Shown here: one piece after another, positions 23,259 through 57,247 of the stretch | How the letters are laid out: the number at the start of each line of letters is the position of its first letter | Numbering within the stretch: the first letter of the stretch is position 1 | From: Maribacter sp. 4G9 | Lineage (GTDB): Bacteria > Bacteroidota > Bacteroidia > Flavobacteriales > Flavobacteriaceae | Length of the DNA: 64,000 bases | Direction of reading: 5' to 3' | Assembly (NCBI RefSeq): GCF_002742265.1 | Contig: NZ_MDGL01000039.1 | Span: forward strand, 1 to 64,000 | Translations under genes and position numbers: made by a program | The notes under the pieces: model-generated | The model's input: only the letters and a program-made list of their open reading frames with translations | What the model was told of the DNA's origin: nothing | Database searches by the model: none

Positions 23259-25157
23259 ATGAAATCAAATGTCAGATTAGTATTTGTTTCATTTTTTTTC
23301 TCATTTAGTCTTTTACAAACCAGATGTTCATCAGATAGGATTGAACCTATAGACTCTGAAAACCCAGCAGCCGAAGGAGATCAACCCCTAGCTCTAGAAG
23401 AACCCATTGATGATGTTGAAGAAGTCGGACTAGGGATAGCGGACATATCAGTTGTCGATTTTAATTTGCCCCCACAAGATGCGGATGGCTTCACCATCTT
23501 GACGCCTAATGAAAACAGTCGATTGGTTTATGTGCACGCCAGTGAAGGTAATGATGACACTGGCCAGGTTTATGAATCCGGTGATGCGGTTATTGGCGAT
23601 GATCCAACAAACCCAAATGGTGAAGTGGCAGCCTTTGCCAGTGTAGCGGAGGCCTTTGCTCAAATGAGGGACGGAGAACCCGATTGGATGCTCTTGGCCT
23701 CTGGGGAGCATTGGGAAGAATCGCTTGATTTGAATAGAGGACGGTCTGCATCGGAAAGAGCTGTGATTACGGCCTATGGTGAAGGTGGGCGACCACAACT
23801 AAGGACAGGTACGAATAGGGGCATAAGATCCGGACAGCCAAGATTTGTCATAGTATCGGGGATAAATTTCTGGGCGCATTCGCGTGATGACGAAAGTGAA
23901 TTTTTTAGTTCTTTCGCTGGAGAAATCGATACCAAGAGCTTTAGGATATTTACGTTTGCGAATGAGGCGGCAAAAATAGAGGATGTACTCATCGAAGACT
24001 GTGTGTTTAGATCTTATGTAACCGCCGAAATATTGGGTTCGACCGCACCGGACTTTCCTATGGAACGTGTGGCATTTAGAAGAAATATTTTTTCTAGAAA
24101 CTATTCTTCAGGTATTGGGATTGTCCATTCACAAGGCATTTATCATGATGGGGCCGATGATAACGGCCAAGCTGTACTATTGTTGGAGGAAAATACCTTT
24201 GACCATAATGGATGGAGAATACAAGCAGCGTCCGGTCTTGATAATAATCCAGCAGAGGGTCAAGCAACAGGATTTAATCACAACATATATTTTTCGTCCG
24301 CAAAAAATGTAGTGGTTCAGGGTAATTTCTTTTTAAGAGGTTCTTCAGCAGGAAATAAATGGAGGTCGGATACCGAGGGGAACTCACACAATGTGTTGAT
24401 CAACAATAATTTGTTCTTTGATAATGAAGTTTCCCTTAGCATTGGGGGAAATGCCAGTGATAGCTATAGGTTTCAAAATTTTGAAGTCATCAATAATGTA
24501 ATCACGGACATGGGGCTATCAAGACCTACGAATAGAGAATTGGGTTGGGGCATTGATTTTAATGATGTATTAAATGGTATTGTCGATAACAACATCATCA
24601 CTCGACAGGAAAACCCAGAAGTTACCACGGTTTATGCGATGGCTGTTTATGCTACGGCGGGATCTGAAGCAAGTGCACTGCAAATCAATAATAATATTGT
24701 ACACAATATTAGTGCAAATCCTGCCACGACCCCAAATTGGGGCTCAGGCATGGTAAGAATGGGCGGTGATTTAATTGACGTTCAATTTGAGGATAATCAA
24801 TTTTATTTTAACCGAGAGCGGTCCGGTACGCTTATAACCTATTTCTCGACGGATGTTAATTTTGGTGGCAATCAATATTTCAGTGTTTTAGAGGACGATA
24901 GATGGTTTGCCTTTAATGACGCATTTATGAGTCTTGAAGCATGGCAAAATGAGGTGGAAATGGGTGCTGCACTGCTAGATGTTTCCCAATGGCCAAACCC
25001 TGATCGAAATATTGATAGCTATAGTAGCGCTATTGGTCTAGGTTCGACCAATGAGGATTTCATTGATGCACTGTACCAACAGTCAAGAAATAACTGGGAC
25101 TCCCGCTTATCGGCACCAGTTGTAAATGCTTGGATACGGGCAGGTTTCGGCAAATAA
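23259..25157 (+). CDS. Right-handed parallel beta-helix lipoprotein
   Basis: A 632-residue protein with a lipobox-like signal (L-L-Q-T-R-C, about Cys23). After an acidic linker, residues 90-600 show the periodic pattern of parallel beta-helix proteins: many short strands with repeated N-N motifs (I-N-N-N-L-F-F, V-I-N-N-V-I, D-N-N-I-I, I-N-N-N-I-V). It resembles polysaccharide lyases or epimerases of the PbH1 type, or a chondroitinase-B-like fold, but I cannot identify a catalytic triad. It lies alone, 19 bases after the small secreted protein. Confidence 0.72.
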   Translation: MKSNVRLVFVSFFFSFSLLQTRCSSDRIEPIDSENPAAEGDQPLALEEPIDDVEEVGLGIADISVVDFNLPPQDADGFTILTPNENSRLVYVHASEGNDDTGQVYESGDAVIGDDPTNPNGEVAAFASVAEAFAQMRDGEPDWMLLASGEHWEESLDLNRGRSASERAVITAYGEGGRPQLRTGTNRGIRSGQPRFVIVSGINFWAHSRDDESEFFSSFAGEIDTKSFRIFTFANEAAKIEDVLIEDCVFRSYVTAEILGSTAPDFPMERVAFRRNIFSRNYSSGIGIVHSQGIYHDGADDNGQAVLLLEENTFDHNGWRIQAASGLDNNPAEGQATGFNHNIYFSSAKNVVVQGNFFLRGSSAGNKWRSDTEGNSHNVLINNNLFFDNEVSLSIGGNASDSYRFQNFEVINNVITDMGLSRPTNRELGWGIDFNDVLNGIVDNNIITRQENPEVTTVYAMAVYATAGSEASALQINNNIVHNISANPATTPNWGSGMVRMGGDLIDVQFEDNQFYFNRERSGTLITYFSTDVNFGGNQYFSVLEDDRWFAFNDAFMSLEAWQNEVEMGAALLDVSQWPNPDRNIDSYSSAIGLGSTNEDFIDALYQQSRNNWDSRLSAPVVNAWIRAGFGK

Positions 25158-25288
25158 TTATCGTATTTGATTTAGCTACTTTCACATCAGTCATTACTAC
25201 TGTTCTAACATCTGACAACAAGAATGGTCATAGTTTTAAGGGTGTAATCTTATTTATGTTTAGAAACAATTAAAACAACTTATTAGGA

Positions 25289-25702
25289 ATGAAAAAGCGA
25301 ATAGAGGCTGGAATGATTCTGATAGCCTTATTTTCTTGCCAATACCATAACCAATTGAGTTCGGACAATGCCTTAACCAAAAGGATTGAAACTGAGTTTA
25401 AAACCGAATCGGAGGTAATTGATTTGACCCAATTGAATAGTTTCGAATGGAACGAATTGTTAATTCTTGGTCCATATTGTGTTATTGAACATATTGAAAA
25501 AGATTTGGACTTGGATTTGGACAATATTAGAGGAAATAGAATTGAATATAGTGATGATATCAACCTTTTGATTTTTCTAAATAATGGGAATTCGGTTAAA
25601 ATCTCGGAGATTTCAAGAGGAATCGGGGATTTTACGGATTTGCAACGGATTATAGAAAGGGATAGGGGGCAAATTCGTAAAAACAGCACTTGGCCAGAAT
25701 AA
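25289..25702 (+). CDS. Small hypothetical lipoprotein
   Basis: A 137-residue protein with a lipobox (I-A-L-F-S-C, about Cys17). The mature part is strongly charged (E-K-D-L-D-L-D-L-D and N-N-G-N-S-V-K-I-S-E-I) and has the look of an immunity- or inhibitor-like beta protein. I recognise no family. It is separated from the beta-helix gene by 131 bases and from marR by 214 bases, so it is probably a single-gene unit. Confidence 0.5.
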   Translation: MKKRIEAGMILIALFSCQYHNQLSSDNALTKRIETEFKTESEVIDLTQLNSFEWNELLILGPYCVIEHIEKDLDLDLDNIRGNRIEYSDDINLLIFLNNGNSVKISEISRGIGDFTDLQRIIERDRGQIRKNSTWPE

Positions 25703-25883
25703 ATTGGTGAAGTAAAGCACAGTTCGTATCCAATAGTTTTAGTCAACAATGTTGCTATTTTATAAAAAATATTTCATTGCTTTTTCACAAAGGATTTGTT
25801 GTAAATCAAATCTTACTGTCGAGAAATTCTACTGGTAAACCATTAAGGTAAAAATGCATTGGTTATATTTTTGATGTCAATAG

Positions 25884-25912
25884 TTGATATATCAATAAAA
25901 TTTGTATATTTG
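25884..25912 (+). promoter_or_regulatory. marR promoter overlapped by a MarR-type operator
   Basis: The perfect palindrome TTGATATATCAA (25884-25895) supplies the -33 TTG, and TATATTTG (25905-25912) is an exact TAnnTTTG -7 box 18 bases further on. The marR start at 25917 is only 4 bases beyond the box, which suggests a leaderless transcript. A related half-palindrome TTGATGTCAA lies just upstream at 25871. Confidence 0.7.
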
Positions 25913-25916
25913 ACTA

Positions 25917-26345
25917 ATGCAACGTATAGAAGATGTTATATTATTTCAGATAGACTGGACGAGTAAAGTTTCAAAGCAATACTCCCAAAGCGAATTTGAC
26001 AGGTTAGGCCTCGGCATTACTGTGGAGCAATGGATTATATTGAAAATTGTTTCTGAGACTGCCACAATATCCCAAAGGGAATTGGCAAACAAATCCCATC
26101 GAGATCCAGCTTCCATTACCCGTACACTGGATATTCTTGAAAAGAAAGGATTACTTATAAGGCAGGCTATTCCAGATAATAGGAGGACCTATAATATTGA
26201 TTTAACAAAAGAAGGGGAAAAGTTCATTAAAGCCAATATGGAATTGATAAATACACATAGAGCCAATAGCATTAAAGGTCTATCCAAAAAGGAGATAGGT
26301 TCGCTAAGCGAGATACTAAAAAAAATAAGAAAGAATATGAGTTGA
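25917..26345 (+). CDS. MarR-family transcriptional regulator
   Basis: A 142-residue winged-helix regulator. The core has I-T-V-E-Q-W-I-I-L-K-I-V, then T-I-S-Q-R-E-L-A-N-K-S-H-R-D-P-A-S-I-T-R-T-L-D-I-L-E-K-K-G-L-L as the recognition helix region, and R-R-T-Y-N-I-D-L-T-K-E-G as the wing. Dimerisation helices form both ends. The same palindrome TTGATATATCAA stands immediately before and after the gene, so it very likely represses itself and the downstream DOMON gene. The inducer is unknown. Confidence 0.88.
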   Translation: MQRIEDVILFQIDWTSKVSKQYSQSEFDRLGLGITVEQWIILKIVSETATISQRELANKSHRDPASITRTLDILEKKGLLIRQAIPDNRRTYNIDLTKEGEKFIKANMELINTHRANSIKGLSKKEIGSLSEILKKIRKNMS

Positions 26346-26364
26346 TATTTTTTTATGCATATAA

Positions 26365-26376
26365 TTGATATATCAA
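26365..26376 (+). promoter_or_regulatory. Second MarR-type operator, upstream of the DOMON gene
   Basis: TTGATATATCAA is identical to the palindrome overlapping the marR promoter. It lies 31 bases before the DOMON gene start. A shared operator on both sides of the regulator gene points to one regulon. Confidence 0.68.
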
Positions 26377-26406
26377 TAATTGATGAACTATGATAAGTAT
26401 AATTCT

Positions 26407-26910
26407 ATGAAGAAACTAGTTTTTATTTGGTTATTATCCATTACTTCAGAACAGTGTAGGGCACAAGACATTCCAAAGAAGGTAGTTTCCAAAAATAGAA
26501 TGGAAGTGAGATGGTATTTTGAAAAAGACATAGTTCATTTTGAAATGACCGCACCAACTAAAGGTTGGGTGGCTATTGGATTCAATACGCATTCGGGTAC
26601 TCAAGGAACTTATCTATTAATGGGAAATGTTATCAAAGGACAAGCTCAAGTTGTTGAATACTACACTTTAGCTCCGGGTAATTATAAAACTGTAGAATCA
26701 TTAAGTGGAGTTCCACAGCTGAAAAATATTTCAGGTATTGAAATAAATAATAGCACAATGCTTCAATTTTCATTGCCGAAAGACTTCACGAGTACCTATC
26801 AAAGAAAACTATCTGAGAACATTGAATATACTATGTTGATGGCATATAGCCAGCAGGATGATTTCCAACACCATTCTATCATGAGAACTTCAATAAATGT
26901 CAAACTCTAA
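26407..26910 (+). CDS. DOMON-domain secreted protein
   Basis: I start the gene at 26407 so that it begins M-K-K-L-V-F with a signal peptide (to about residue 21, Q-C-R-A-Q); an ATG 27 bases earlier is also open. The mature 147-residue protein has the DOMON pattern: E-V-R-W-Y-F-E-K-D-I-V-H-F-E-M-T-A-P-T-K-G-W-V-A-I-G-F and the closing Y-T-M-L-M-A-Y-S-Q-Q-D-D-F-Q-H-H. DOMON domains bind haem or sugars. The H-H near the C-terminus fits a ligand position. It would act in the periplasm under MarR control. Confidence 0.75.
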   Translation: MKKLVFIWLLSITSEQCRAQDIPKKVVSKNRMEVRWYFEKDIVHFEMTAPTKGWVAIGFNTHSGTQGTYLLMGNVIKGQAQVVEYYTLAPGNYKTVESLSGVPQLKNISGIEINNSTMLQFSLPKDFTSTYQRKLSENIEYTMLMAYSQQDDFQHHSIMRTSINVKL

Positions 26911-26982
26911 TTATAGGCCAATGAAATAAAGTAAACATAGTTATTCCACAATCTAAAAGACGTAAACAATAAAACAAAAAAT

Positions 26983-27411
26983 ATGAAAAAAAACAATCTA
27001 ATACTACTAGTATTTACACTATTGATAATTACAAGTTGTACTGCTCAAAACGATGATAAATCACAAATTCAAGAAGTTTTAACGAAGTTTTGCAAAGCTG
27101 GAGATGAGAATGATACCAAGGAATTGGCCACCTGTTTGGATGATAATTACAGAATTGTGATGAATCGTTTATTTGGTAGTACCGAGGTCAGTATTATGGA
27201 CAAAGCCGTTTATCTAGATAAAATAAAAGCTAAGGAATTCGGCGGGGATTCAAGGACATTGACCATAGAAAATATTATCCTAAATGGAACAACCGCAAGT
27301 GCTAAAGTAGTGCTTAAAGGAACAAAATCGTCTTTTATATCCTTGATTACTCTGGTCCAGGATGCACAGGGGTATTGGAAACTTATAGGTGATATGCCCA
27401 TAGTGCAGTAG
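26983..27411 (+). CDS. NTF2/lumazine-binding-like lipoprotein
   Basis: A 142-residue lipoprotein (I-I-T-S-C, Cys19). The mature domain has the NTF2-like order: helix (I-Q-E-V-L-T-K-F-C-K-A-G-D-E-N-D), the variable region L-D-D-N-Y-R-I-V, V-S-I-M-D-K-A-V-Y-L-D-K-I-K, and a last strand L-V-Q-D-A-Q-G-Y-W-K-L-I-G. This resembles the putative lumazine-binding family (PF12893) seen in Bacteroidota. It sits 72 bases after the DOMON gene and may belong to the same MarR-controlled unit. Confidence 0.65.
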   Translation: MKKNNLILLVFTLLIITSCTAQNDDKSQIQEVLTKFCKAGDENDTKELATCLDDNYRIVMNRLFGSTEVSIMDKAVYLDKIKAKEFGGDSRTLTIENIILNGTTASAKVVLKGTKSSFISLITLVQDAQGYWKLIGDMPIVQ

Positions 27412-27443
27412 ATAAGACTGCTTCTGTTAATTTTGAGAAGATA

Positions 27444-27475
27444 GGTCCGTGATGATAACTCCATGGGCCTTTTTT
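27444..27475 (+). terminator. Rho-independent terminator-like hairpin
   Basis: GGTCCGTG and CATGGGCC pair, with G-U pairs, around a 10-base loop and are followed by TTTTTT. It stands 33 bases after the NTF2-like lipoprotein gene and separates that unit from the resolvase island. Confidence 0.6.
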
Positions 27476-27539
27476 GACTAAGTTTTGAACATTTCAGATT
27501 TCTAGATTTCATGATAGCACTACAGTAAATTAGTAACTA

Positions 27540-27754
27540 TAAATTTGTGATTTTTATATTAAACCTTATACGGTACCGTACACGGTTTCTCTAAAATCAA
27601 ACATGTAGAATTGGGTGTAAATAGGAAAAATCAGTTCATTTAATCTACCGTTTTATTAAACTTATGAACTTATCCGTGTTCACTAATTCTAAAAAGTTTA
27701 TTTCATCGTACTAATTAATTAGTTTAATTTTTAACATTTAATTAAACTATTTCT
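27540..27754 (+). promoter_or_regulatory. Upstream region of the serine resolvase, with inverted repeats
   Basis: The 344-base gap before the resolvase contains a TAAATTTG box at 27540-27547, the palindrome-rich stretch ACGGTACCGT at 27570-27579, and a perfect 8-base inverted repeat GTTTAATT/AATTAAAC (27722-27747). The last ends 7 bases before the resolvase start. The nested repeats fit a resolvase binding (res-type) or autoregulation site, but no classic three-subsite res could be confirmed. No gene is visible. Confidence 0.4.
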
Positions 27755-28363
27755 ATGGTTTTTGGATACGCAAGGGTTAGCACTGCAGTGCAGAGTCTCG
27801 ATTTACAATTGGATGCTCTTCTCAAAGAGGGAATAACCCGTAAGAATATTTATACCGACAAGGTATCCAGTACCAAAGAAGAACGAAATAGTTTGAACAA
27901 GTTGCTCAACTATGTTCGTGAGGGTGATACCATTGTGGTCTGGAAACTTGACCGCTTGGCCCGAAGTCTTATTCACTTCACCAAGTTGATGCAAGAGCTG
28001 GACGAAAAAGGGGTTAAGTTTCGAAGTATTACCGAATCTTTTATCGACACTACCAAAAAGTCCTCCCAATCGGAATTCATCATCAACATTTTTGCCGCTC
28101 TCGCTCAACTGGAACGAGATATTATTATAGAACGAACAAAAGCTGGTTTGGAATCTGCAAGACGCCGTGGGAAGGTTTTGGGAGCGCCAAAAGGAATTAG
28201 TAAGAAAAATCAACAGAAAGCTGTACTTTGCGAAGAGTACTTCAAAGAAGGAAAATTGACGGTGTCAGAAATTTGTGAACGATTGGCTATTTCTAGAGCT
28301 ACTTATTATAAGTATCTCAGATTTAGAGGGCTAAATAACAGTTTAAGACCATATTCAAAATAA
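27755..28363 (+). CDS. Tn3/Hin-type serine resolvase/invertase
   Basis: A 202-residue site-specific recombinase. The catalytic domain (about 1-135) shows the active Ser9 in G-Y-A-R-V-S, the conserved arginine strand D-T-I-V-V-W-K-L-D-R-L-A-R-S, and E-R-D-I-I-I-E-R-T on the long helix. A Hin-type HTH follows (about 155-195, L-T-V-S-E-I-C-E-R-L-A-I-S-R-A-T-Y-Y-K-Y). It looks intact. The OLD-like gene starts 7 bases after its stop, so the recombinase and the cassette are probably co-transcribed and could be exchanged together. Confidence 0.85.
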   Translation: MVFGYARVSTAVQSLDLQLDALLKEGITRKNIYTDKVSSTKEERNSLNKLLNYVREGDTIVVWKLDRLARSLIHFTKLMQELDEKGVKFRSITESFIDTTKKSSQSEFIINIFAALAQLERDIIIERTKAGLESARRRGKVLGAPKGISKKNQQKAVLCEEYFKEGKLTVSEICERLAISRATYYKYLRFRGLNNSLRPYSK

Positions 28364-28369
28364 TTTGCA

Positions 28370-29884
28370 TTGATAGAAAGTTTAAAATTACAGAGCGGGC
28401 TCAGCATAGACCTCAAACCGACTAATTTATTTATCGGACCTAATAATTCAGGCAAAAGTACCCTTCTCCTGGAAATACAAAACTTAATTACAACTGAATC
28501 TTTACTGAAGTCTTACACTCCCAATAGTCTTAAACTTAGCGAGGTTAGAGACTTTATTGAAAAGAGAGGCAAAAAGATACCCGCTCCAAGCGGCGGTTCA
28601 TGGAATTACAAAACATGGGATGAATCAAAAAGTCTTATTGAGAGTAACTTTGATTTTATATCCAAACGCTTACATCGAAATAAATGGATTGATTCTACAA
28701 CCATTTTAGACGGAAAGGCTCGATTGAGCATTATTGAGGATATGAATTATCAAGGAGTGGCCCCAAAAAATCCACTCAATGTGTTTGAAGTTTTGAGACA
28801 TGATGATTCTTTACGTTCTAAGCTTCAATCCTATCTACAAAAGGTAATGCCAGAAAAATATTTTGCTCTTTGGAATCCTAATCTAAACAAGCTCTGTGCC
28901 TACTTATGTGATAGTGAGCCCAAAAATGATATTGAATACTATGATTCAATTAAAGCACATGATTTTTTTGAAAAAGACGCGGCCCCACTATTATCATACA
29001 GCGATGGCATTAAAGCTTACATTGGAATATTAATTAATTTAATCGCTAGTGGTAAAAGATATTTTCTTATTGATGAACCAGAAGCCTTTTTGCATCCGAA
29101 TCTTTGTTTTCAATTAGGCAAAACTGTGAGTCAAATAGCAAGAGAAAATAATTATCTATGTTTTTGCGCCACACATTCTCCATTTTTTTTGAAGGGTTGT
29201 CTATCTCAATCGCCAAATAACGTGACTGTCACAAGACTTGGATATGAGAGTGGAGTTGGAAAAGCTAAAACTATAAAGCCTAAAGATATAAAGGCTATTA
29301 TCCATGACCCTTTGTTAAATAACATTGGGGTGATTGAGGGTTTATTTCATTCTCGTGTTGTTATGACTGAAGGTGATTCTGACCGTGCATTCTATACTGA
29401 AATCAACAACCGGATGCTGGCTGAAACAGAGGATGGAATTAGGGATTGCATATTTATAAATGCTCAGAACAAGCAAACCATAGCTAAGGTAGTTTCATTA
29501 TTCAGAAATATTGAGATTCCGTGCGCGGCAATATCTGATATTGATACTTTTAAGGAGGGAGGTACAAATTTTACCAATATTTTAAAAGCCTTGTCGATTA
29601 AAGGAGGCACAGCGGAAGCACTATCCATACTACGAAGTAGAACAAACGAAAACTTAAAGGTTGCTGCCAGAGGAGAATCAACTGATGAGAGGTCATTTGA
29701 AACTATCGAAAAAAGATTAACAGAATTCAAAAACAAAGGTAAATCCCCCTCCCTTTTTCTGGCAGCTCTACAGAAGTTGAATAGACCACCCGACTATAAG
29801 AGATTGGGTGGAGTTACGTTGTTGGAAGGCCAAGATTTTGATGATGCCTTGAATCTAATCGGACAACTTGCAAATAATGGATAG
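28370..29884 (+). CDS. OLD-like nuclease: AAA ATPase fused to TOPRIM
   Basis: A 504-residue protein that needs a TTG start at 28370. Walker A is G-P-N-N-S-G-K-S-T (residues 23-31); a signature-like Y-S-D-G-I-K lies near 210. Walker B is F-L-I-D-E-P-E-A-F near 229-237, and the H-loop C-A-T-H-S is near 268. A TOPRIM domain follows: V-V-M-T-E-G-D-S-D-R near 330-340 with the key Glu, and S-D-I-D near 388-391 for the DxD pair. This layout matches OLD-family enzymes such as GajA of the Gabija defence system or the retron-linked OLD nucleases. No UvrD-type helicase lies nearby, so it is not Gabija. It probably cuts nucleic acid in an ATP-gated manner. Confidence 0.8.
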   Translation: MIESLKLQSGLSIDLKPTNLFIGPNNSGKSTLLLEIQNLITTESLLKSYTPNSLKLSEVRDFIEKRGKKIPAPSGGSWNYKTWDESKSLIESNFDFISKRLHRNKWIDSTTILDGKARLSIIEDMNYQGVAPKNPLNVFEVLRHDDSLRSKLQSYLQKVMPEKYFALWNPNLNKLCAYLCDSEPKNDIEYYDSIKAHDFFEKDAAPLLSYSDGIKAYIGILINLIASGKRYFLIDEPEAFLHPNLCFQLGKTVSQIARENNYLCFCATHSPFFLKGCLSQSPNNVTVTRLGYESGVGKAKTIKPKDIKAIIHDPLLNNIGVIEGLFHSRVVMTEGDSDRAFYTEINNRMLAETEDGIRDCIFINAQNKQTIAKVVSLFRNIEIPCAAISDIDTFKEGGTNFTNILKALSIKGGTAEALSILRSRTNENLKVAARGESTDERSFETIEKRLTEFKNKGKSPSLFLAALQKLNRPPDYKRLGGVTLLEGQDFDDALNLIGQLANNG

Positions 29885-29887
29885 TTT

Positions 29888-30088
29888 GTGATTCCTGATG
29901 GCGAAGTCGAAAAATGGTTATTAAACTTGGATGCAGGAATTTCAAAAAATGGTTGGTTGCTAAGGATTTTCGATAAAATGGGATCAGACCCTAAATCAAA
30001 AGGATATGTAAAACCACCATCAACACTTGATGATGTGTGGTTGTTTATTGCGAAAATAAATCAATGGTTTCTAGAAAAGGTTAATTAA
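29888..30088 (+). CDS. Small hypothetical protein between the OLD-like and MltR-like genes
   Basis: A 66-residue frame with a GTG start, 3 bases after the OLD-like stop. It has W-L-L-N-L-D-A-G-I-S-K-N-G-W-L-L-R-I-F and ends N-Q-W-F-L-E-K-V-N. The tryptophan-rich helical character and tight spacing (9 bases to the next gene) argue that it is real and translated with its neighbours. No family is recognised. It could be an inhibitor or specificity subunit. Confidence 0.5.
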   Translation: MIPDGEVEKWLLNLDAGISKNGWLLRIFDKMGSDPKSKGYVKPPSTLDDVWLFIAKINQWFLEKVN

Positions 30089-30097
30089 TAGATTAAA

Positions 30098-30673
30098 TTG
30101 GATAAAAAGCAGAAGGAACTTTTATTGAAGGAATTTCCCATTTTACTTGAAAAATTTAAATTGGAAAGTGATCGGGGCGTGGTCCTGGTTGTTACAGCAA
30201 TGGTTGAAAATGAGTTGAAAGCACAATTGACTAAAAGACTCCTTGCTAAAGCAGAAGCACAAGATGAATTACTTTCTAATTCTGCAACATCTCCAATTTC
30301 TACCTTTAGTTCAAAGATCAATTTAGCATTTCGAATAGGACTAATTACTAATCCTGAAAGGACGGTTTTTCATCAGCTTAGAAAAATAAGAAATCGCTGT
30401 GCTCACGAAATTGATTCTCAACACTTTGGACAAAATCATTTTAAAGATCATATGAGGAACATTATAAATGCCCATCCTGATATTTGGGATATTATGAGCA
30501 AGAGATTAGTTCCATCTCAAATTGCAAAAGAGTATGAAGATGTTGAGCATTATTTAAACGAGTTAGGGTGGCGTGTTGCATTTGAAGCTTTCTTTGGTTT
30601 AATCATAGCACATAAACGCATCTCAAAACACAGGATTTTGCCAATAATAGCTCTTAGTAAAATACATAATTAA
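30098..30673 (+). CDS. MltR/DUF4145-like helical protein with HEPN-type motif
   Basis: A 191-residue all-helical protein with a TTG start. Residues 20-95 fit the MltR-like pattern (E-S-D-R-G-V-V-L-V-V-T-A-M-V-E-N-E-L and F-S-S-K-I-N-L-A-F-R-I-G-L-I). Near residues 96-103 is I-R-N-R-C-A-H-E, a match to the HEPN motif R-[NHD]-x(3)-H found in RNase toxins and defence effectors. HEPN nucleases dimerise with the R..H pairs as active sites. Here it would be the effector or regulator partner of the OLD-like protein. The call to MltR is by layout; the HEPN reading is inference. Confidence 0.55.
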   Translation: MDKKQKELLLKEFPILLEKFKLESDRGVVLVVTAMVENELKAQLTKRLLAKAEAQDELLSNSATSPISTFSSKINLAFRIGLITNPERTVFHQLRKIRNRCAHEIDSQHFGQNHFKDHMRNIINAHPDIWDIMSKRLVPSQIAKEYEDVEHYLNELGWRVAFEAFFGLIIAHKRISKHRILPIIALSKIHN

Positions 30674-30696
30674 ATAATCAAAAGTTCAATAAAACG

Positions 30697-31164
30697 ATGA
30701 GTATAGCAAAACAAAAATTCAAACTTCCTAGGAAAAAGAAGAAGTTCTTGAAAAAGGGAATATGGTTATACCCAGCGGATGAAAATGGGGATTCACTTTC
30801 CGCTAAGCCGGCTATATACGAAAAGGACTATCTGGCTTTTAAAGAAGGAAGTCTTAGGAATCTATTGAACAGAAGCAAAAAGAAGACCAAAGAATTTCGC
30901 AAGAACTTGGATAAGGAGGTTTTTGTTTCTGATGAAATGTTGCTGACCTTTGTAAATGAAATTTTTTCTGATCGCTATGAACAGGATTCCTATAAAAGTT
31001 TGATTCGTGCAAAAAATAGTAAAAAAGCTGTAGTGGCATATTTTAATTTCTTGAACGCGTTTGAAATCTACAAGAATGGGAATGACTCCTACGCAAACAT
31101 TTGTTGCATGTCAGTTGACTTGGCCATTGACCTACTGAGCTCAAAAAAGAAAAGTAAGTTGTAA
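30697..31164 (+). CDS. Basic hypothetical protein
   Basis: A 155-residue protein whose first 60 residues hold four lysine-rich patches (P-R-K-K-K-K-F-L-K-K, N-R-S-K-K-K-T-K-E-F). This is followed by a helical middle (V-F-V-S-D-E-M-L-L-T-F-V-N-E-I-F) and a C-terminus with C-C. The basic character suggests nucleic-acid binding. No family is recognised. It lies 23 bases after the HEPN-like gene and 88 bases before the toxin-antitoxin pair, on the same strand. Confidence 0.5.
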   Translation: MSIAKQKFKLPRKKKKFLKKGIWLYPADENGDSLSAKPAIYEKDYLAFKEGSLRNLLNRSKKKTKEFRKNLDKEVFVSDEMLLTFVNEIFSDRYEQDSYKSLIRAKNSKKAVVAYFNFLNAFEIYKNGNDSYANICCMSVDLAIDLLSSKKKSKL

Positions 31165-31252
31165 TATTATTATCGAACCCAGCTTTAAAATAGTGATAAA
31201 TTCTAATATTTTAAGTATATTGGTCTAATTATATAATATAATTTATATCTAA

Positions 31253-31564
31253 ATGTTAGACATTGTATACAAATATCAAGGTTTACTTGAAAATATTGAT
31301 AGCTATATTGATGATAGTAAATTCAAAAAGGAGTATCTGATAGAACGACTTGGCGTTTCTCGTGCAACATTTTACAACAAAGTCAAGAAGAAAAATTTCA
31401 CAGTTGACGAAATGGTTATCCTAAGCAACATTCTTTTTCCTGAAGAAGCTAAGGCTTTCGAAATTAAGGAGGCTCTAAGGGCAAGTCGGGAGGACAGTAA
31501 GAATGGAAGAATAAGAGATCATAAGGATGTTATGGGTGATGTACGTAAAAAATTGCGTGCATGA
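31253..31564 (+). CDS. Antitoxin with helix-turn-helix
   Basis: A 103-residue protein. The middle forms a helix-turn-helix (Y-L-I-E-R-L-G-V-S-R-A-T-F-Y-N-K-V), and the C-terminus is charged (A-L-R-A-S-R-E-D-S-K-N-G-R, then V-R-K-K-L-R-A). A DNA-binding N-terminus plus a toxin-neutralising tail is the expected antitoxin layout. Its stop overlaps the toxin ATG by 4 bases (ATGA). AT-rich sequence directly upstream holds no clear TAnnTTTG box. Confidence 0.65.
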   Translation: MLDIVYKYQGLLENIDSYIDDSKFKKEYLIERLGVSRATFYNKVKKKNFTVDEMVILSNILFPEEAKAFEIKEALRASREDSKNGRIRDHKDVMGDVRKKLRA

Positions 31565-31866
31565 AGGTGATTTGGACTAGAAAAGCTGACAATTCATTCA
31601 ACGGAATTGTAGACTACCTATTGGATATTTGGAACATGGAGATAGCGACTAGTTTTGTCGATACCGTTGATCATACTATCGAGCTTATTGTTAAAAACCC
31701 TGAGATGTTCAAGGTCTCCGAATATGATCAAATAAGTAGAGCGGCATTTATTACGAAGCATACTACAATGTTCTATAGAATATTGGATAATACAATAGAA
31801 ATTGAATACTTCTGGGGGAATTTCGATAATCCGGAGAAAATAAATGAATTGCTAAAGTTTAAATAA
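31561..31866 (+). CDS. RelE/ParE-type toxin
   Basis: A 101-residue protein of the ParE/RelE fold: it opens W-T-R-K-A-D-N-S-F-N-G-I-V-D-Y-L, has F-V-D-T-V-D-H-T-I-E-L-I-V-K-N-P-E near the middle and closes F-Y-R-I-L-D-N-T-I-E-I-E-Y-F-W. RelE-family toxins cut mRNA on the ribosome; ParE inhibits gyrase. The sequence does not separate the two. Stability of the neighbouring island is a plausible role. Confidence 0.78.
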   Translation: MKVIWTRKADNSFNGIVDYLLDIWNMEIATSFVDTVDHTIELIVKNPEMFKVSEYDQISRAAFITKHTTMFYRILDNTIEIEYFWGNFDNPEKINELLKFK

Positions 31867-31884
31867 TGGATTATCAATCATATC

Positions 31885-31932
31885 GATTTTATGCTGTTTT
31901 CATTATGGGAGCGGTTTTGAAAGCATAAAATC
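31885..31932. repeat. Perfect 11-base inverted repeat downstream of the toxin gene
   Basis: GATTTTATGCT and AGCATAAAATC pair perfectly around a 26-base loop. It stands 19 bases after the toxin stop. No clean T-tract follows, so it may be a weak terminator or an RNA-processing element. Confidence 0.45.
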
Positions 31933-31982
31933 AAAATTTTGGGAGTATCGCTCCTAAGAATCTTTTACCTTACACTAAAAAA

Positions 31983-33038
31983 ATGAAACATATAGCTCTT
32001 AAGTTGTTAATTGCTTTAGTGATATTTTCTTCAGAAATACTAAGTGCACAACATTTTAATATCCACAATCCTATCATCCTCCCTGATAAGAGTCAACAAT
32101 CCATGATAACACAACGTATCGGATATACGGACATCACTATACGTTATCATAGTCCAGGTTCTAGGGGAAGGGTGGTTTGGGGAGAATTAATTCCCTACGG
32201 TAAGGTTTGGCGAGCGGGAGCCAATGAGAATACCGTATTTACAATTACCAATGATGTAGAAATTAATGGGCAGAAGTTGCCCGCAGGTAGTTATGGCCTT
32301 CACCTTTTACCTGAAGAGAACCAATGGACATTTATTTTTTCAAAGAATCACACCTCATGGGGAAGCTATTTTTACGAGGAGGAAGAAGATGCATTGCGCA
32401 TAACAGTTCCAGTTCAAAACAACTTGGATGAAAGAGAGTGGTTAAGTTATGATTTCAAGAAGAGAGAGCGTGATACGGCTTCGGTAGTCCTGAGCTGGGC
32501 TAGTAAAAAAGTGGAATTCAACATAAGTTTGAATGTTGATGAAATTGCCCTTGAAAACATTCGAAAACAACTTCGCTCAGATGCATATTGGGAATGGTTC
32601 AGCTGGTGCCAGGCTGCAGATTATTGTGCTGAATACAAAATAAACACGAAAGAGGCGCTTGAGTGGATTGATAAGTCCATTGAACTCCAGGAAAATTTCT
32701 CCAACTGGGATGTAAAAGCAAAGTTATTGAAACAATCAGGTAATCCAAAAGCTGCTGAAGCGGCGATACAACGAGCCATTGAAGTTGGCAGTGATATCTA
32801 TCTGGAACGTTATGGGCGTAGACTTTTAAGGGAAGAAGACTTTGAAGGTGCAGCATATGTTTTTGGAAAGGCCATAAAGAAAAATGAAACTTACTGGAGG
32901 GCGCATTTTAATCAAGGAAATGCATTTAAAGCGCTGAAAAAAAACAAGGATGCCAAAAAATCTTATGAACTCGCCCTCAAATATGCCCCGATAGACAGGA
33001 AAGACCTAATGACCAAAAGCATAGAATCCCTAAAATAG
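31983..33038 (+). CDS. DUF2911 protein with C-terminal TPR
   Basis: A 351-residue protein with a signal peptide (about residues 1-22, ending I-L-S-A-Q). The DUF2911 domain (about 38-180) shows G-Y-T-D-I-T-I-R-Y-H-S-P-G-S-R-G-R, W-R-A-G-A-N-E-N-T, and L-P-A-G-S-Y-G-L-H. Residues about 205-345 carry TPR motifs (A-L-E-W-I-D-K-S-I-E-L, A-A-I-Q-R-A-I-E-V-G, and Y-W-R-A-H-F-N-Q-G-N). It is a periplasmic protein common in Bacteroidota, with unknown function. It converges with the RpiR gene, leaving about 100 bases between the stops. Confidence 0.75.
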   Translation: MKHIALKLLIALVIFSSEILSAQHFNIHNPIILPDKSQQSMITQRIGYTDITIRYHSPGSRGRVVWGELIPYGKVWRAGANENTVFTITNDVEINGQKLPAGSYGLHLLPEENQWTFIFSKNHTSWGSYFYEEEEDALRITVPVQNNLDEREWLSYDFKKRERDTASVVLSWASKKVEFNISLNVDEIALENIRKQLRSDAYWEWFSWCQAADYCAEYKINTKEALEWIDKSIELQENFSNWDVKAKLLKQSGNPKAAEAAIQRAIEVGSDIYLERYGRRLLREEDFEGAAYVFGKAIKKNETYWRAHFNQGNAFKALKKNKDAKKSYELALKYAPIDRKDLMTKSIESLK

Positions 33039-33140
33039 TTTGATTATTACTTAAGAAGGCTACATAATCATAATGCTATAGCGAAAATTGGATATCAAAA
33101 TTGGTCAAAACAATAAATCGTAGAGGTAACTTTTAAGTGG

Positions 33141-33992
33141 TTATATTTTGTACACGTTATCTTTTTCTGACATCGTTCTAAAAAATTTGAACCGCGAAAC
33201 CGTCTCGGGCTTAAGAATATTGGCAATGCTATAAAAAATAGCGTTTACAATACAATACGCCCCTACCATACTGCCAAAGTAAAAACTATTTGAACTGTTA
33301 ATGGTAATATGGTAGTCGCTATATTCAATTAAAGGAGATAAATCACTGTCCACTATTGAAATAGTTGTTGATTTTTTCTCCATTTTGGCAAGTTTAAGCG
33401 CCTTAATAGTCTGGTTTTGGCATTTGTCGAGGCAAATTGCCAAGACAACATCGCCTTTGGAGAAATGGGCCATGTTCAAGAATAGTTCGCCGTGGTATTC
33501 AGTGCTGGCATGTATTTGGGGAACTGCCGATCTGCATATCCGCTCCATATAATTGGCTACCAAGCCAATATGGCCCAACCCGATAATGTAAGTCTGTTTT
33601 GAGGCGATTATTGCGTTGGCTATTTTTTCAATCACCTCAAAATTAATAGTATCGTAAGTTTTCTGGAGCATCATTATGTCTCCCAGTATCGCATCTTGGG
33701 CAACCTTTTGTGGGTTAGAGTGAGCGCGTACCTCTTTGATCATTCCACTAAAAACTGAATCTACCCTAGTTAGCTGTACCTCATCCTTTAAAAGCTCCTT
33801 CAATTCATAAAAACCATTTAGGCCTATAGCCTTGCAAGCTTTTACTATGGTTGCTGGATTAACGCCCAGCTTATCTCCCAGCTCCTCCATTCGCATCAAT
33901 ACAACCTTATCTGGATAATCCAAAGCGTATTGGATAACCAACCTTCTCTTTTTTGAAAGTTTGGATAAGTCAATACGGTTTATTGTTTTCAT
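33141..33992 (-). CDS. MurR/RpiR-family regulator with SIS domain
   Basis: A 283-residue regulator. The N-terminal HTH_6 domain (about 1-77) has D-K-L-G-V-N-P-A-T-I-V-K-A-C-K-A-I-G-L-N-G-F as the recognition helix region. The SIS sugar-isomerase domain (about 125-255) has I-I-G-L-G-H-I-G-L-V-A-N-Y-M and G-D-V-V-L-A-I-C-L-D-K-C. RpiR proteins sense phosphorylated sugars such as N-acetyl-hexosamine phosphates. It is divergent from the glycan-locus genes starting at 34228. Two GAAGT/ACTTC inverted repeats in the shared 235-base interval are candidate operators. Confidence 0.88.
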   Translation of the reverse strand: MKTINRIDLSKLSKKRRLVIQYALDYPDKVVLMRMEELGDKLGVNPATIVKACKAIGLNGFYELKELLKDEVQLTRVDSVFSGMIKEVRAHSNPQKVAQDAILGDIMMLQKTYDTINFEVIEKIANAIIASKQTYIIGLGHIGLVANYMERICRSAVPQIHASTEYHGELFLNMAHFSKGDVVLAICLDKCQNQTIKALKLAKMEKKSTTISIVDSDLSPLIEYSDYHITINSSNSFYFGSMVGAYCIVNAIFYSIANILKPETVSRFKFFRTMSEKDNVYKI

Positions 33993-34147
33993 AGGCTATG
34001 AGGACAAAAATATACAAAATACATTACCAAGAACTGTGTTATATAATAATTATTAATATTGCTTTTTTTTAAATTACCACATTAATATTGCATTTATTAT
34101 ATTTTTTCTTAAATTGTGTTAAATCCCATCTTATCATACCTAATACC

Positions 34148-34158
34148 ACTTCAGAAGT
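34148..34158. promoter_or_regulatory. Candidate RpiR operator 1
   Basis: ACTTCAGAAGT is a perfect inverted repeat (ACTTC/GAAGT) 70 bases before the symporter gene, in the divergent interval with rpiR. It shares its half-site with the second repeat. Confidence 0.45.
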
Positions 34159-34195
34159 TTTGAGGTTCCTACCAAGCAACTTGATTTATTATAAC

Positions 34196-34209
34196 GAAGT
34201 ATAAACTTC
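34196..34209. promoter_or_regulatory. Candidate RpiR operator 2
   Basis: GAAGTATAAACTTC is a perfect inverted repeat with the same GAAGT/ACTTC half-sites in the opposite order, 18 bases before the symporter start. Two such sites 37 bases apart suggest cooperative binding. Confidence 0.45.
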
Positions 34210-34227
34210 TAAAGCGTCCTTTATAAA

Positions 34228-35562
34228 ATGTCTAAAAATAGGTGGAGCAACAAGTTTTCTTTTATCATCACAACCTCAGCGTTTGCGATAGGGTTGGGGA
34301 ATATTTGGCGCTTTCCTTATGTGGCTGGTGAAGGAGGGGGCGCTGCATTCATATTGGTCTATCTTGTTTTAATGTTTTTAATTGGCATTCCTATTTTGAC
34401 CATAGAAATTGCCTTGGGCCGTATGTCCGATACCACAATACTAATTGGTTTCGGAAAGATGGCCAAGAAATCCCAATGGAATGGAGTCGGTTGGTTAGGA
34501 ACAATCGCTTGTATTTTAATAATGGGATTCTATATCATGATCATGGCGTGGATAGCAATTTATCTATGGGAATGCTTATCGGGCAAAATCTCTGAACTAC
34601 CGATCAATAAAATTTCTGGACATTTTGATATCGTGGCTTCAAACTTACTAACTGTCATTGCGGTTATTCTTATCATTATGTTCATCGTATTCTTTGTTGT
34701 ACGTCAAGGTTTAAAAGCTGGTTTGGAACGCTATTCCAAAGGAATGATGTTCGGATTGATTGTTCTTATGGTAGGTTTGTGTATTTGGGCCGCTACTTTA
34801 AATGGTGCTTCTGAAGGGTATCATTGGCTTTTGTCCCCCGATTTCTCCAAAATCAATTTTCCGATAGTTATGAGTGCTTTGGGGCAACTTTTCTTTTCGG
34901 TAGGAGTTGGTATGGCGGTAGCATTTGTTTTTGGAAGTTATACCCATAAAAATGAGAATCTTGTAAAAAGCACTACATGGATAGTTTTAGCGGATACATT
35001 TTTCGCACTTCTTGCGGGACTCATGCTGTTTCCAGCCATTTTTAGTTTTAATCTTGAACCTGATTCAGGACCAAATCTAATTTTTGTTACAATGGCCACT
35101 GTTTTCAATCAATTGGAACACGGCTGGGCAGTTGGCGCATTATTCTTTCTACTGTTGTTTTTGGCTGGATTTACCTCACTTATCTCATGCATACAAGGCT
35201 TAAAGGATACGTTCAAGGATAAATATTCCTTATCCGATACGATTGCTTTGTTATTTGTGATCGGTTGCATCACAGTGATAGCAATCTTGGCAGTTTTTTC
35301 TTATGCGGATAATCCATTGCTGCTATTCGGGAAAACGGTTTTTGAAACCTTGGATTATACAACGAGTAGCCTATTGTTGCCATTAAGCGGATTACTCATA
35401 GTGGTATTCGCAGGACACATTATTGGCTTTACTAAACTGAGGTCACATCTTACTGCCGAATCAAAAACGCTAAAGATCGGGGCGTATTGGAAAATCATTC
35501 TGCTATGGATATTGCCTCTGGCACTGCTTATCATTTTAATAAATGGTCTTTTGAATACTTAA
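34228..35562 (+). CDS. Sodium-dependent neurotransmitter-symporter (SNF/NSS) family transporter
   Basis: A 444-residue inner-membrane protein with about 11-12 helices. The family signature G-L-G-N-I-W-R-F-P-Y lies near residues 21-30, with the following G-E-G-G-G-A-A-F. NSS proteins import amino acids or amines with sodium. Co-location with an M20 deacylase and an FAD oxidoreductase suggests uptake of an amino-acid-like compound released from, or coupled to, a glycan. The first gene of the plus-strand locus, it has an 18-base gap to operator 2. Confidence 0.85.
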   Translation: MSKNRWSNKFSFIITTSAFAIGLGNIWRFPYVAGEGGGAAFILVYLVLMFLIGIPILTIEIALGRMSDTTILIGFGKMAKKSQWNGVGWLGTIACILIMGFYIMIMAWIAIYLWECLSGKISELPINKISGHFDIVASNLLTVIAVILIIMFIVFFVVRQGLKAGLERYSKGMMFGLIVLMVGLCIWAATLNGASEGYHWLLSPDFSKINFPIVMSALGQLFFSVGVGMAVAFVFGSYTHKNENLVKSTTWIVLADTFFALLAGLMLFPAIFSFNLEPDSGPNLIFVTMATVFNQLEHGWAVGALFFLLLFLAGFTSLISCIQGLKDTFKDKYSLSDTIALLFVIGCITVIAILAVFSYADNPLLLFGKTVFETLDYTTSSLLLPLSGLLIVVFAGHIIGFTKLRSHLTAESKTLKIGAYWKIILLWILPLALLIILINGLLNT

Positions 35563-52991: not shown

Positions 52992-53007
52992 TAAATAATT
53001 ATCAAGT

Positions 53008-53033
53008 GGTGCAAATATTTGCTATATTGCACC
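53008..53033. promoter_or_regulatory. Perfect inverted repeat between the HMA and ParD genes
   Basis: GGTGCAA and TTGCACC flank 12 AT-rich bases. The repeat ends 13 bases before the antitoxin start, where ParD-type antitoxins usually bind and repress their own operon. It might also affect the divergent HMA gene. Confidence 0.6.
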
Positions 53034-53046
53034 ATTTATTTTATTT

Positions 53047-53289
53047 ATGCAAACCACTAGGAAGTCAATAACGTTTACGGACCAACAGGATAGTTGGATT
53101 AAGCTCAGAGTTGAAAACGGGGATTTTACAAACGATAGTGAATACATCCGTGAACTGGTCAGAAAGGACCAGGCAGAGAACATGAAACTCATGGAACTCA
53201 AACAAGCTATAGATGAAGGTATGCAAAGTGGCCGAAGCCCTTTGAAAATAAGCGATATTATCAAGAAGGTGGATAATGGGGAGCTATAA
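53047..53289 (+). CDS. ParD/CopG-like antitoxin
   Basis: An 80-residue protein with the ribbon-helix-helix start (S-I-T-F-T-D-Q-Q-D-S-W-I), then N-G-D-F-T-N-D-S-E-Y-I-R-E-L-V-R as the DNA-binding helices. A flexible C-terminus (about 50-80) with G-R-S-P-L-K should bind the toxin. Its stop overlaps the toxin start by 14 bases. This is a type II antitoxin of the ParD group. Confidence 0.85.
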   Translation: MQTTRKSITFTDQQDSWIKLRVENGDFTNDSEYIRELVRKDQAENMKLMELKQAIDEGMQSGRSPLKISDIIKKVDNGEL

Positions 53290-53569
53290 TCTTTCCACTA
53301 GGGCTCAATTTGATGTCGTTGGAATTTATAAGTACGGAATAAAGTATTTCGGTATCGAACAGGCTGCTTCTTATTTGACCGAGCTAGAAGATTTCTTGGA
53401 AGAACTGGCAACACGTGGTGAACTGGCCAGAGATGCTTCGCCAATTGCCCACGGATTAAAGTTCTATAATTTCAAAGGCCATGTAATTTATTATTCATTT
53501 GATAATGTTGGTGAAATATACGTAGTAAGAATTTTAGGTAAAAGAATGAATTTCGAAGAACATTTGTAA
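53276..53569 (+). CDS. ParE-type toxin
   Basis: A 97-residue protein of the ParE/RelE fold: L-S-T-R-A-Q-F-D-V-V-G-I-Y-K-Y, then A-A-S-Y-L-T-E-L-E-D-F, and the strand end H-V-I-Y-Y-S-F-D-N-V-G-E-I-Y-V-V-R-I-L. ParE toxins inhibit DNA gyrase. The pair overlaps its antitoxin gene and could stabilise the adjacent mobile region. Confidence 0.85.
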   Translation: MGSYNLSTRAQFDVVGIYKYGIKYFGIEQAASYLTELEDFLEELATRGELARDASPIAHGLKFYNFKGHVIYYSFDNVGEIYVVRILGKRMNFEEHL

Positions 53570-53586
53570 GTTCAAAAAAACGATCA

Positions 53587-54156
53587 ATGAAAAACACCAT
53601 TCTCATACTATTTCTTTTGTACTTCTTAATAGGGTGTAGCGAACAAAAACCGAATCACAAAGATACGGTCAGTAAATATTACAATTCTTTTGATTCAGGC
53701 AAATACGATGAAATAAGAGGTATCCTAAATGATAGTGTCACGCAAATTAGCGGAGATTTCGTCACACCTTATACCCATCAAAGTTTTTATGAATTTTTTA
53801 AGTGGGATTCCATATTTAAATCGTCCTATGAAATTGTTGAATTGAAAGAAAAGAATAATGATATTATTGTAACCGTTGCCCAGGAGAATTTGAGAAATGA
53901 ATTTTTAAGGAACAACCCTCTAGTGTACAGGGTCAGAGTTTCCTTTATTTCAGATAAAATCTCAAGGCTTGAGGACTTTGATTATATAGATGTTAATTGG
54001 GAGGTTTGGAATCAAAACAAAGATTCGTTAGTTAATTGGATAAAGAATAATCATCGAGACTTAGATGGCTTCGTAAATGATATGACTATGAAAGGATCTA
54101 TGAATTATTTAAAGGCTATTGAATTATACACTTCTAATAAGGATAGTCTTCATTAA
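53587..54156 (+). CDS. Hypothetical lipoprotein, NTF2-like
   Basis: A 189-residue lipoprotein (F-L-I-G-C, Cys17). The first part (about 22-130) resembles an NTF2-like domain: V-S-K-Y-Y-N-S-F-D-S-G-K-Y-D-E-I-R and R-V-S-F-I-S-D-K-I-S. The remaining 60 residues are helical. It is 17 bases after the ParE gene and may be only a passenger. Confidence 0.55.
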   Translation: MKNTILILFLLYFLIGCSEQKPNHKDTVSKYYNSFDSGKYDEIRGILNDSVTQISGDFVTPYTHQSFYEFFKWDSIFKSSYEIVELKEKNNDIIVTVAQENLRNEFLRNNPLVYRVRVSFISDKISRLEDFDYIDVNWEVWNQNKDSLVNWIKNNHRDLDGFVNDMTMKGSMNYLKAIELYTSNKDSLH

Positions 54157-54179
54157 AGTATAAATAAACGATTGATTTT

Positions 54180-55522: not shown

Positions 55523-55870
55523 ATGGGAAGGCCAAAAAAAGAACCGACGTCGTTGAAAATAATACAGGTCAATATCAGAATGACCGTTGACGACTATATC
55601 AAGGTTTCCGATAATGCCAAGACCATTGGGCTATCAATTGCCGAATTTATCCGAAGAAAGGTCACTGAAAAGTCCCTTCCAAAGAAAAAGGTAAGTCCAA
55701 CTGACCGAAAGCTTTTTGTCGAGCTGAGCCAGGTGGGCAACAACCTGAACCAACTGGCCAAGTTCGTCAACTCCGGTATCCGCGACCCGTACAACATCGA
55801 TAAACAATTGGAAGAGGTAAAAAGGCTGTTGCAATTCCTTAAATCGAATATTTCGGGGAATGATAGGTAA
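55523..55870 (+). CDS. MobC-like relaxosome protein
   Basis: A 115-residue basic protein. A ribbon-helix-helix-like N-terminus (V-N-I-R-M-T-V-D-D-Y, then G-L-S-I-A-E-F-I-R-R-K-V) is followed by the MobC signature L-S-Q-V-G-N-N-L-N-Q-L-A-K-F-V-N. It binds near oriT and helps the relaxase open the DNA. Its end overlaps the relaxase start by 11 bases. Confidence 0.87.
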   Translation: MGRPKKEPTSLKIIQVNIRMTVDDYIKVSDNAKTIGLSIAEFIRRKVTEKSLPKKKVSPTDRKLFVELSQVGNNLNQLAKFVNSGIRDPYNIDKQLEEVKRLLQFLKSNISGNDR

Positions 55871-56909: not shown

Positions 56910-56931
56910 GAAACACCCTAAATGCAAACAC

Positions 56932-57204: not shown

Positions 57205-57247
57205 AAACCGAGGGTTGTTAACCGATGATTGATAAGTATGGGATAAA

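Follow-up and report, generated by a model that had tools for sequence, protein, structure and literature searches.

The 64,000-nucleotide window analyzed here (Maribacter sp. 4G9, family Flavobacteriaceae; contig NZ_MDGL01000039.1, positions 1 to 64,000) contains a gene for a small serine recombinase of the resolvase type, followed by a cassette that encodes an OLD-like nuclease and an MltR/HEPN-like protein. This arrangement is probably the head of a gene-cassette array, an analogue of an integron in which the recombinase is a small serine recombinase and not the tyrosine integrase IntI. More generally, it is fairly likely that the family possesses a second, independently evolved integron-like system of gene capture, in which a serine recombinase with a palindromic head site (2-bp core) captures, stacks, and exchanges cassettes that carry a 17-bp one-sided site, often with defence systems beside the recombinase. 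Genomes and loci of the comparison are designated by G and L numbers, G000 being the genome of the window.

The recombinase gene (27755..28363, forward strand) encodes a protein of 202 amino acids (aa) of the resolvase/invertase type, with a PF00239 catalytic domain at residues 2-140 (1.5e-41) and a C-terminal helix-turn-helix (HTH), in agreement with the initial annotation of the region; it is the proposed recombinase of the cassettes. About 107 bp 5' of its start lies the inverted half-site CGTTTTATTAAACTT (27649..27663, reverse strand), the left edge of the proposed mobile unit. This half-site is adjoined by the central dinucleotide of the head site, AC (27647..27648, strand not assigned), and by a degenerate left half with four mismatches to AAGTTYAAWWAAASG (27632..27646, forward strand). 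At the other end stands the cassette site AAGTTCAATAAAACGAT (30682..30698, forward strand), an exact match made of a 15-bp half-site plus AT, which forms the right edge of the resolvase-plus-cassette unit and an inverted repeat with its left edge. Because this inverted copy lies directly 3' of the MltR-like gene, the set is interpreted as a resolvase plus cargo bounded by the half-sites at 27649-27663 and 30682-30696. These enclosing half-sites had been overlooked in the initial annotation; its suggestion that the recombinase may mobilize the set is strongly supported.

The same head is found in relatives of the resolvase. Two other species of the genus have orthologues with 82-92% identity and other genera have orthologues with 68-89%, and a search of the family genomes revealed a further group at 52-58%; the orthologues mostly have the same head site and other cargo. 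The inverted half-site CGTTTTATTRAACTT is the upstream boundary in 10 of the 11 aligned resolvase loci, the window included, and in most loci the inverted copy stands a short and almost constant distance 5' of the resolvase. Nucleotide homology with L083 and L084 begins at 27647 and 27640, respectively, some 108-115 bp 5' of the resolvase gene, and stops at 28315 and 28321, shortly ahead of its end. In 24 loci, even among close relatives, the last codons of the resolvase and the sequence downstream vary, which looks like cargo joining inside the gene end, perhaps at an attI-like site. In a comparison of 20 head sites, a spacer of 2 bp is the only one at which the left half matches the half-site consensus: 10 have at most four mismatches at this spacer, compared with 0/20 at each other spacer from 0 to 12 and a background of 0.44%. 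Serine recombinases are marked by 2-bp cores, and the core sites of tyrosine recombinases by spacers of 6-8 bp. In addition, one genome (G173) contains the unit of inverted half-site, resolvase, PDC-S02 gene, and degenerate right site twice, with different flanks; the two copies are 97.7% identical over 1,864 columns.

Two further groups of resolvases were noted. Those of L085 and L101-L109, mostly about 220-233 aa, form a subgroup with an extra Cys-rich C-terminal tail (CKECG...), and likewise head arrays with the same site. Related resolvases (50-55%) are also present on Aureispira and Runella plasmids.

Many resolvase loci hold arrays of mostly single, co-directional genes, each of which is closed by AAGTTYAAWWAAASGAT. 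In 24 loci (the window and 23 others, picked by resolvase and not by site), the pattern AAGTTYAAWWAAACGAT with at most two mismatches occurs 93 times in the sense of the resolvase, seven of these upstream of it, and 19 times in antisense, where 16 of the matches are the head site; mononucleotide shuffles give an expectation of 2.0 matches per strand. Eight sites accompany eight consecutive genes at L105, and no site lies downstream of the resolvase at L101, L111, and L112. A logo drawn from 229 sites is sharp (A-AAGTTCAAATAAASGAT), and the bases that flank it show no more than weak preferences; no second conserved box was found within 30 bp upstream of these sites. An attC-type hairpin was likewise not seen in the 80 of 230 sites that were folded (bottom strand, 87 bp), whose mean z of -0.05 compares with -0.17 for random stretches of the same loci taken from the top strand.

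The segments between adjacent sites (n = 209, within 150-3,000 bp) have a median length of 667 bp, and their longest open reading frame (ORF) lies in sense in 179 and in antisense in 13, with none qualifying in the other 17. Sites and gene ends frequently coincide: in 54 of 230 sites an ATG-started ORF of at least 50 aa begins at positions 11-25 (33 of them at position 16), and in 26 an ORF of at least 50 aa stops inside the site (22 of them at position 10, TAA), whereas 230 random places gave 8 starts and 7 stops. In the window, the AT of the site at 30682..30698 provides the first letters of the ATG of the next gene. Array content is diverse, with 297 proteins falling into 242 clusters. A PADLOC scan of 150 of the 242 cluster representatives returned 60 families at 1e-8, each in at most two members, and the 25 listed of 95 Pfam families in cassettes, with one to four members each, include HTH, ParE, Abi, peptidase, and hydrolase families. 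Among the matches listed for viral contigs, none of at least 120 stretches contains two exact sites, and no arrays were found there. Further site clusters are present in G000, whose assembly comprises 196 contigs: those on C43, C91, C122, C155, and C159 (L113-L118) have no close resolvase hit and are comparable to clusters of attC sites lacking integron integrases (CALINs).

Cassettes are shared between genomes, with boundaries that coincide with the site. A blastn comparison between arrays of different genomes, resolvase excluded, gave 50 shared stretches of at least 100 bp. In 18 of these, both genomes have a site end no more than 3 bp from where the stretch stops, and in 10 both have one no more than 20 bp from where it starts; at the 20-bp limit, the null means are 0.11 for ends and 0.13 for starts, with a maximum of 2. 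In eight full-length cassette pairs, identity extends from just after the 5' site to just after the 3' site, and agreement at position 6 is 0.88 at the 3' site vs 0.38 at the 5' site. Since identity spans the 3' site and not the 5' site in these pairs, the site seems to move together with the cassette whose 3' end it forms, in the manner of attC. The window itself takes part in this sharing: its cassette at 53587-54156 is flanked by a site at either end, as is the G351 homologue, and the preceding stretch, 52994-53584, is 91.7% identical to one of G014, both ending at a site. As for synteny through flanking genes, the gene at 31983-33038 has many distant family members, the best outside the window being 33% identical, and the upstream gene at 26380-26910 has no relatives outside G000.

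Resolvase and site also occur together. Among 397 family genomes, the resolvase is found at 1e-45 in 17 and at least three exact sites in 19; at least three sites are present in 13 of the 17 resolvase genomes vs 6 of the 380 others (Fisher p = 7.6e-17). These genomes contain 272 exact sites vs 34 for the reversed pattern, the latter never more than two per genome, and 337 of the 397 have no site. G000 is the only one of 395 class genomes with more than one exact site. G488, which lay outside the definition of the pattern, has four sites directly 3' of a broken resolvase copy on the same strand, and G231, with two sites, has a resolvase fragment about 2 kb upstream of them, also on the same strand. 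Of the six site-rich genomes without a resolvase at 1e-45, G213 and G310 hold resolvase fragments and G381 holds relatives of 41-43%.

A functional integron, as described in PMC8618304, consists of a tyrosine-recombinase integrase and attC sites that are bound as a folded bottom strand. With integrons as outlined there, the present arrays have several traits in common: a tandem array, mostly one-gene cassettes, one site at the 3' end of each cassette, a recombinase that heads some arrays and recombinase-less arrays like CALINs, toxin-antitoxin cassettes, and mostly unknown genes (PMC8618304). Unlike in integrons, the recombinase is of the serine resolvase type, the 17-bp site has neither a hairpin nor a second box, the head site forms a palindrome around a 2-bp core, and the recombinase gene points in the same direction as the array, between the head site and the first cassette. 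The array would work like an integron by analogy, although it is not classed as one, because neither IntI above its cut-off nor a folded attC was detected.

The small serine resolvases and invertases known so far act in cointegrate resolution or in the inversion of segments. The window resolvase resembles them (PF00239; Mpi, NF009949; recomb_XisF, NF041201) in its catalytic domain, its C-terminal HTH, and its palindromic site with a 2-bp core; the protein (P0003) scores 82.7 bits to Mpi (cut-off 272) and 100.6 bits to XisF (cut-off 375). IS607-type serine transposases are likewise small serine recombinases that move DNA, with a circular intermediate in the case of IS607. The HTH is C-terminal in the window resolvase, unlike the N-terminal HTH of IS607, and the score to the IS607 equivalog NF033518 is 32.9 bits, below the cut-off of 110. 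We know of no cassette arrays for IS607-type transposases.

The cargo directly behind the resolvase is often of a defence type. PADLOC was run on 20 selected proteins (L093, L095, L096, L099, and L105 were left out), and a match at 1e-8 follows the resolvase in at least 12 of 19 head-site loci. These matches are Old in the window and Old-like at L108; type I restriction at L084 and L101; type IIG at L085 and L103; type III with PDC-S08 at L102; PDC-S73 with PDC-M68B at L094 and PDC-S73 at L104; PDC-M71B at L097 (partial, 7.9e-10); Gabija, as a true GajA/GajB pair, at L098; and, at L109, a type II methyltransferase preceded by a PDC-S02 gene, the latter scanned as its copy at L106. L083 and L107 gave no PADLOC match, with one protein scanned at each. 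This count, which covers the cargo at the head, suggests that the head slot may favour defence genes.

In the window, the head cargo is the first cassette (28364..30698, forward strand), with an interrupted OLD-like nuclease gene, an MltR/HEPN-like gene, and the site at its end. It is phage-defence-type cargo; the initial annotation had considered an OLD-type nuclease with an MltR protein bearing a HEPN motif plausible as such, and this holds. That annotation had described four tightly spaced genes from the resolvase onward. The four ORFs are indeed present, with starts at ATG 27755, TTG 28370, GTG 29888, and TTG 30098 and gaps of 3-9 bases, but the third is not a gene of its own: the ORF at 29888-30088 is in frame with the ATPase and is split off from it by a TAG (29882-29884) plus one codon. 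The nuclease gene thus comprises an N-terminal part of 504 aa up to this TAG (28370..29884, forward strand) and, by phmmer and alignment, a C-terminal part of the same frame (29885..30088, forward strand).

The identity of the ATPase-TOPRIM protein as OLD-type stands (OLD-like_TOPRIM 1.4e-8, PADLOC Old 5.4e-27). Pfam domain matches to the ATPase are AAA_15, AAA_21, and OLD-like TOPRIM, and alignment with relatives shows Walker A/B and the TOPRIM E and DxD, as in class 1 OLD nucleases (6p74); the window copy differs in its interruption. The TAG falls at codon 505 of 572, ahead of the nearly invariant G511, E512, E514, and W516, so that the frame stops before this motif and the C-terminal TOPRIM part is incomplete. 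By phmmer, the 66-aa ORF downstream corresponds to the C-terminal end of the homologous protein in 30 of 32 OLD relatives from public genomes; the two missed are L004, cut by a contig end, and L033, and the 30 include the partial ORFs L034 and L035. In an alignment that leaves out L034 and L035, 29 of 30 relatives read through the TAG position and the thirtieth, L004, stops earlier at its contig end. Because the tail is in frame and the relatives read through, the GTG at 29888 is most likely an internal codon and not a start. Judged by the alignment, a mutation or an assembly error interrupts the nuclease, whose tail is still recognizable. An antitoxin or adaptor role for the small ORF was also considered and is ruled out, as the ORF matches the C-terminal end of the nuclease in 30 of 32 relatives.

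The predicted model of the nuclease (mean predicted local distance difference test, pLDDT, 86.5) has a strand at 505-507. In a fold search it matches best 6p74, the OLD protein of Thermus scotoductus (E 4.4e-11), then retron Eco8, with Gabija GajA lower down among SMC-type ATPases; the overall template modelling (TM) scores are low (0.33-0.36). The cassette shares a GajA-like ATPase-TOPRIM with Gabija, but lacks its GajB helicase: no ORF for a GajB UvrD-type helicase was found within 24500-34500, as the initial annotation had stated. The window's own genome also contains a second, more distant OLD-like match, in a 630-aa open frame (G000:C43:47376-47933, L041).

The last gene of the cassette (30098..30673, forward strand) encodes a protein of 191 aa with a conserved DRG and R-x4-H (RNRCAH), in line with the MltR-like identity and R-N-R-C-A-H motif first reported for it. 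No Pfam family matches the window protein above cut-off (DUF4145 scores 0.0026), and Pfam MtlR, which matches four of the six aligned family members, is not reported for it at 0.01. The six aligned proteins have DRG and R-x-IRN-x-x-AH in common; R98, N99, and H103 of RNRCAH are invariant among them, and the R-x4-6-H motif is present. A profile of six relatives finds the mannitol operon repressor structures 6kcr (8.2e-6) and 3brj (9.6e-4). On plasmids, nine weak records of relatives were found, three of them annotated as MltR family. Taken together, the MltR annotations, the MtlR family matches, the 6kcr and 3brj profile matches, and the invariant R98, N99, and H103 make the MltR/HEPN assignment of this ORF a reasonable one. 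The protein resembles the MltR family (PF05068; 6kcr, 3brj) in its profile match and differs in its context, a cassette and not a mannitol operon. Its predicted model, built without alignment, is all-helical with a pLDDT of only 55.8. In viral contigs, 31 stretches matched a pattern used to look for MltR-like relatives, and none of them encodes one. MltR-like relatives are present in 3 of 149 genomes, its own included; one of them (L037, G014:C4) lies near large SIR2-like, HerA-like, and NACHT-like ORFs, by reading of ORFs, in surroundings resembling a defence island.

In the loci sampled, the nuclease and the MltR-like protein do not form a conserved pair. An MltR-like neighbour was found in 0 of 32 OLD-relative loci (phmmer, E<=1), and the only resolvase match among these loci is a weak one to the L004 ATPase itself. 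All-against-all blastp over 3.5 kb on each side revealed no consistent neighbour: only three clusters recur in at least three loci, namely that of the OLD protein, that of the MltR-like proteins in L001-L003, and a four-locus cluster that is inconsistently placed. Several of the OLD-relative contigs are short, and a co-occurrence could therefore escape. Conversely, an MltR relative also occurs in two other genomes of the genus, G014 and G033, and neither has an OLD-like match at 0.001 anywhere in the genome; none was found beside the gene either. OLD plus MltR as a conserved pair is thus ruled out in the sample.

Several observations weigh against a cassette array run by this resolvase. That the resolvase performs the recombination is deduced from sequence comparison. 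Array sites have only one conserved half-site (229 sites), which is unusual for serine recombinases; the central dinucleotide is AC (once GC) at heads vs AT in arrays; 4 of the 24 resolvase loci lack a head site even at three mismatches; and no site is visible by eye between the resolvase and the first cassette. Of the 50 shared stretches, which are not independent, as some cassettes occur in several pairs, 30 lack a site within 20 bp of their end in at least one of the two genomes. Twenty of the 44 loci that yield 282 sense and 20 antisense sites (at most two mismatches, each locus turned to its majority strand) were fetched because they bear sites. The co-occurrence test is partly circular, because loci of 15 of the 17 resolvase genomes served to define the pattern; one genome outside that definition, G189, has a resolvase and zero sites, and an exact site is lacking in 4 of the 17 (G051, G189, G363, and G465). 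G469, G461, and G315, with 30, 8, and 3 exact sites, have no resolvase relative at 1e-10, which may point to another recombinase or to loss of the resolvase. Finally, IntI (TIGR02249) is above cut-off in 0 of 20 array genomes and also in 0 of 14 control genomes, so that this result has no positive control.

Some of these points fit other explanations of the arrays. The resolvase and its cargo might move as a unit, as a composite transposon-like element, with arrays being pile-ups of insertions that lost the resolvase; the inverted ends in the window, the presence of the unit at two places in G173, and the resolvase remnants in G213, G231, G310, and G072 are all consistent with this. We nevertheless regard it as unlikely, since array sites show no conserved left half-site or other sequence on their 3' side (229 sites) and the median segment of 667 bp is barely longer than the resolvase gene. 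It is more doubtful still that these are true cassette arrays moved by another enzyme, for instance a tyrosine recombinase, with the resolvase as a mobile passenger that uses or mimics the site. Tyrosine-recombinase matches do occur in each of the 20 genomes tested, none of them above the IntI cut-off, G469 combines its many sites with the lack of a resolvase relative, and several G000 site clusters are on contigs other than that of the resolvase. Against such an enzyme stand the co-occurrence of sites with this resolvase, with the circularity mentioned, the inverted site a short distance upstream of the resolvase gene, and the 2-bp spacer, compared with 6-8 bp for tyrosine recombinases.

Two other readings find little credence. 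The initial annotation had proposed that the OLD-like nuclease, the small ORF, and the HEPN-like protein constitute one new multi-subunit anti-phage system, and had named a lack of co-occurrence of the homologues as evidence to the contrary; the co-occurrence check found them never together in the sample. The close spacing within one cassette, the occurrence of OLD and HEPN proteins in defence systems, and the defence-type genes near the MltR-like relative of G014 (by reading of ORFs) would suit this proposal, but the small ORF is the C-terminus of an interrupted nuclease, no MltR-like gene accompanies the OLD relatives, and G014 and G033 have no OLD match, which makes such a system very improbable. 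A role of the repeated 17-mer in regulation or in translation coupling within ordinary operons, to which it gives TAA and ATG, is hardly credible: the excess of ORF starts and stops at sites over random places would suit such a role, but homology between genomes breaks at the site, array content is unrelated, and the site is absent from most genomes of the family.

If the cassette-array interpretation holds, the resolvase would cut at the dinucleotide directly after the half-site, single cassettes or the resolvase-plus-cassette unit would leave as circles, and the excised circles would rejoin 3' of existing sites. Integrons, the textbook platform of gene capture, would then have a counterpart with short double-stranded sites, cassette arrays would have evolved more than once, the site would serve directly to search for cassette reservoirs that tools designed for integrons are not meant to detect, and the presence of unrelated defence systems (Gabija, several restriction types, OLD-like nucleases) in one slot behind one recombinase would be explained. 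Among the open-licence papers listed, none gives an account of serine-recombinase cassette arrays; preprints and most subscription papers were outside this scope, and a prior description is possible.

Downstream of the first cassette, the window contains a second (30697..31871, forward strand), which carries a toxin-antitoxin-like pair. It comprises a 155-aa unknown gene (30697-31164), an HTH antitoxin-like gene (31253-31564) with Pfam matches below cut-off, and a ParE-type toxin gene (31561-31866; PF05016, 1.7e-6), whose stop codon is overlapped by the cassette's site (31855..31871, forward strand, two mismatches). A second mini-array, without resolvase, is located at 52994-54172 and consists of a toxin-antitoxin-like ORF pair (53047-53289 and 53276-53569, by reading) and a lipoprotein-like gene (53587-54156), with a site after each: an exact one at 53568..53584 and one with a single mismatch at 54156..54172, both on the forward strand. 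Further on, the stretch 55523-59170 has ORFs resembling MobC and a relaxase, a large serine recombinase in two ORFs (57500-58183 and 58343-59143), and a tRNA-Arg at 59096; by reading of its ORFs, it looks like the remnant of an integrative mobilizable element.

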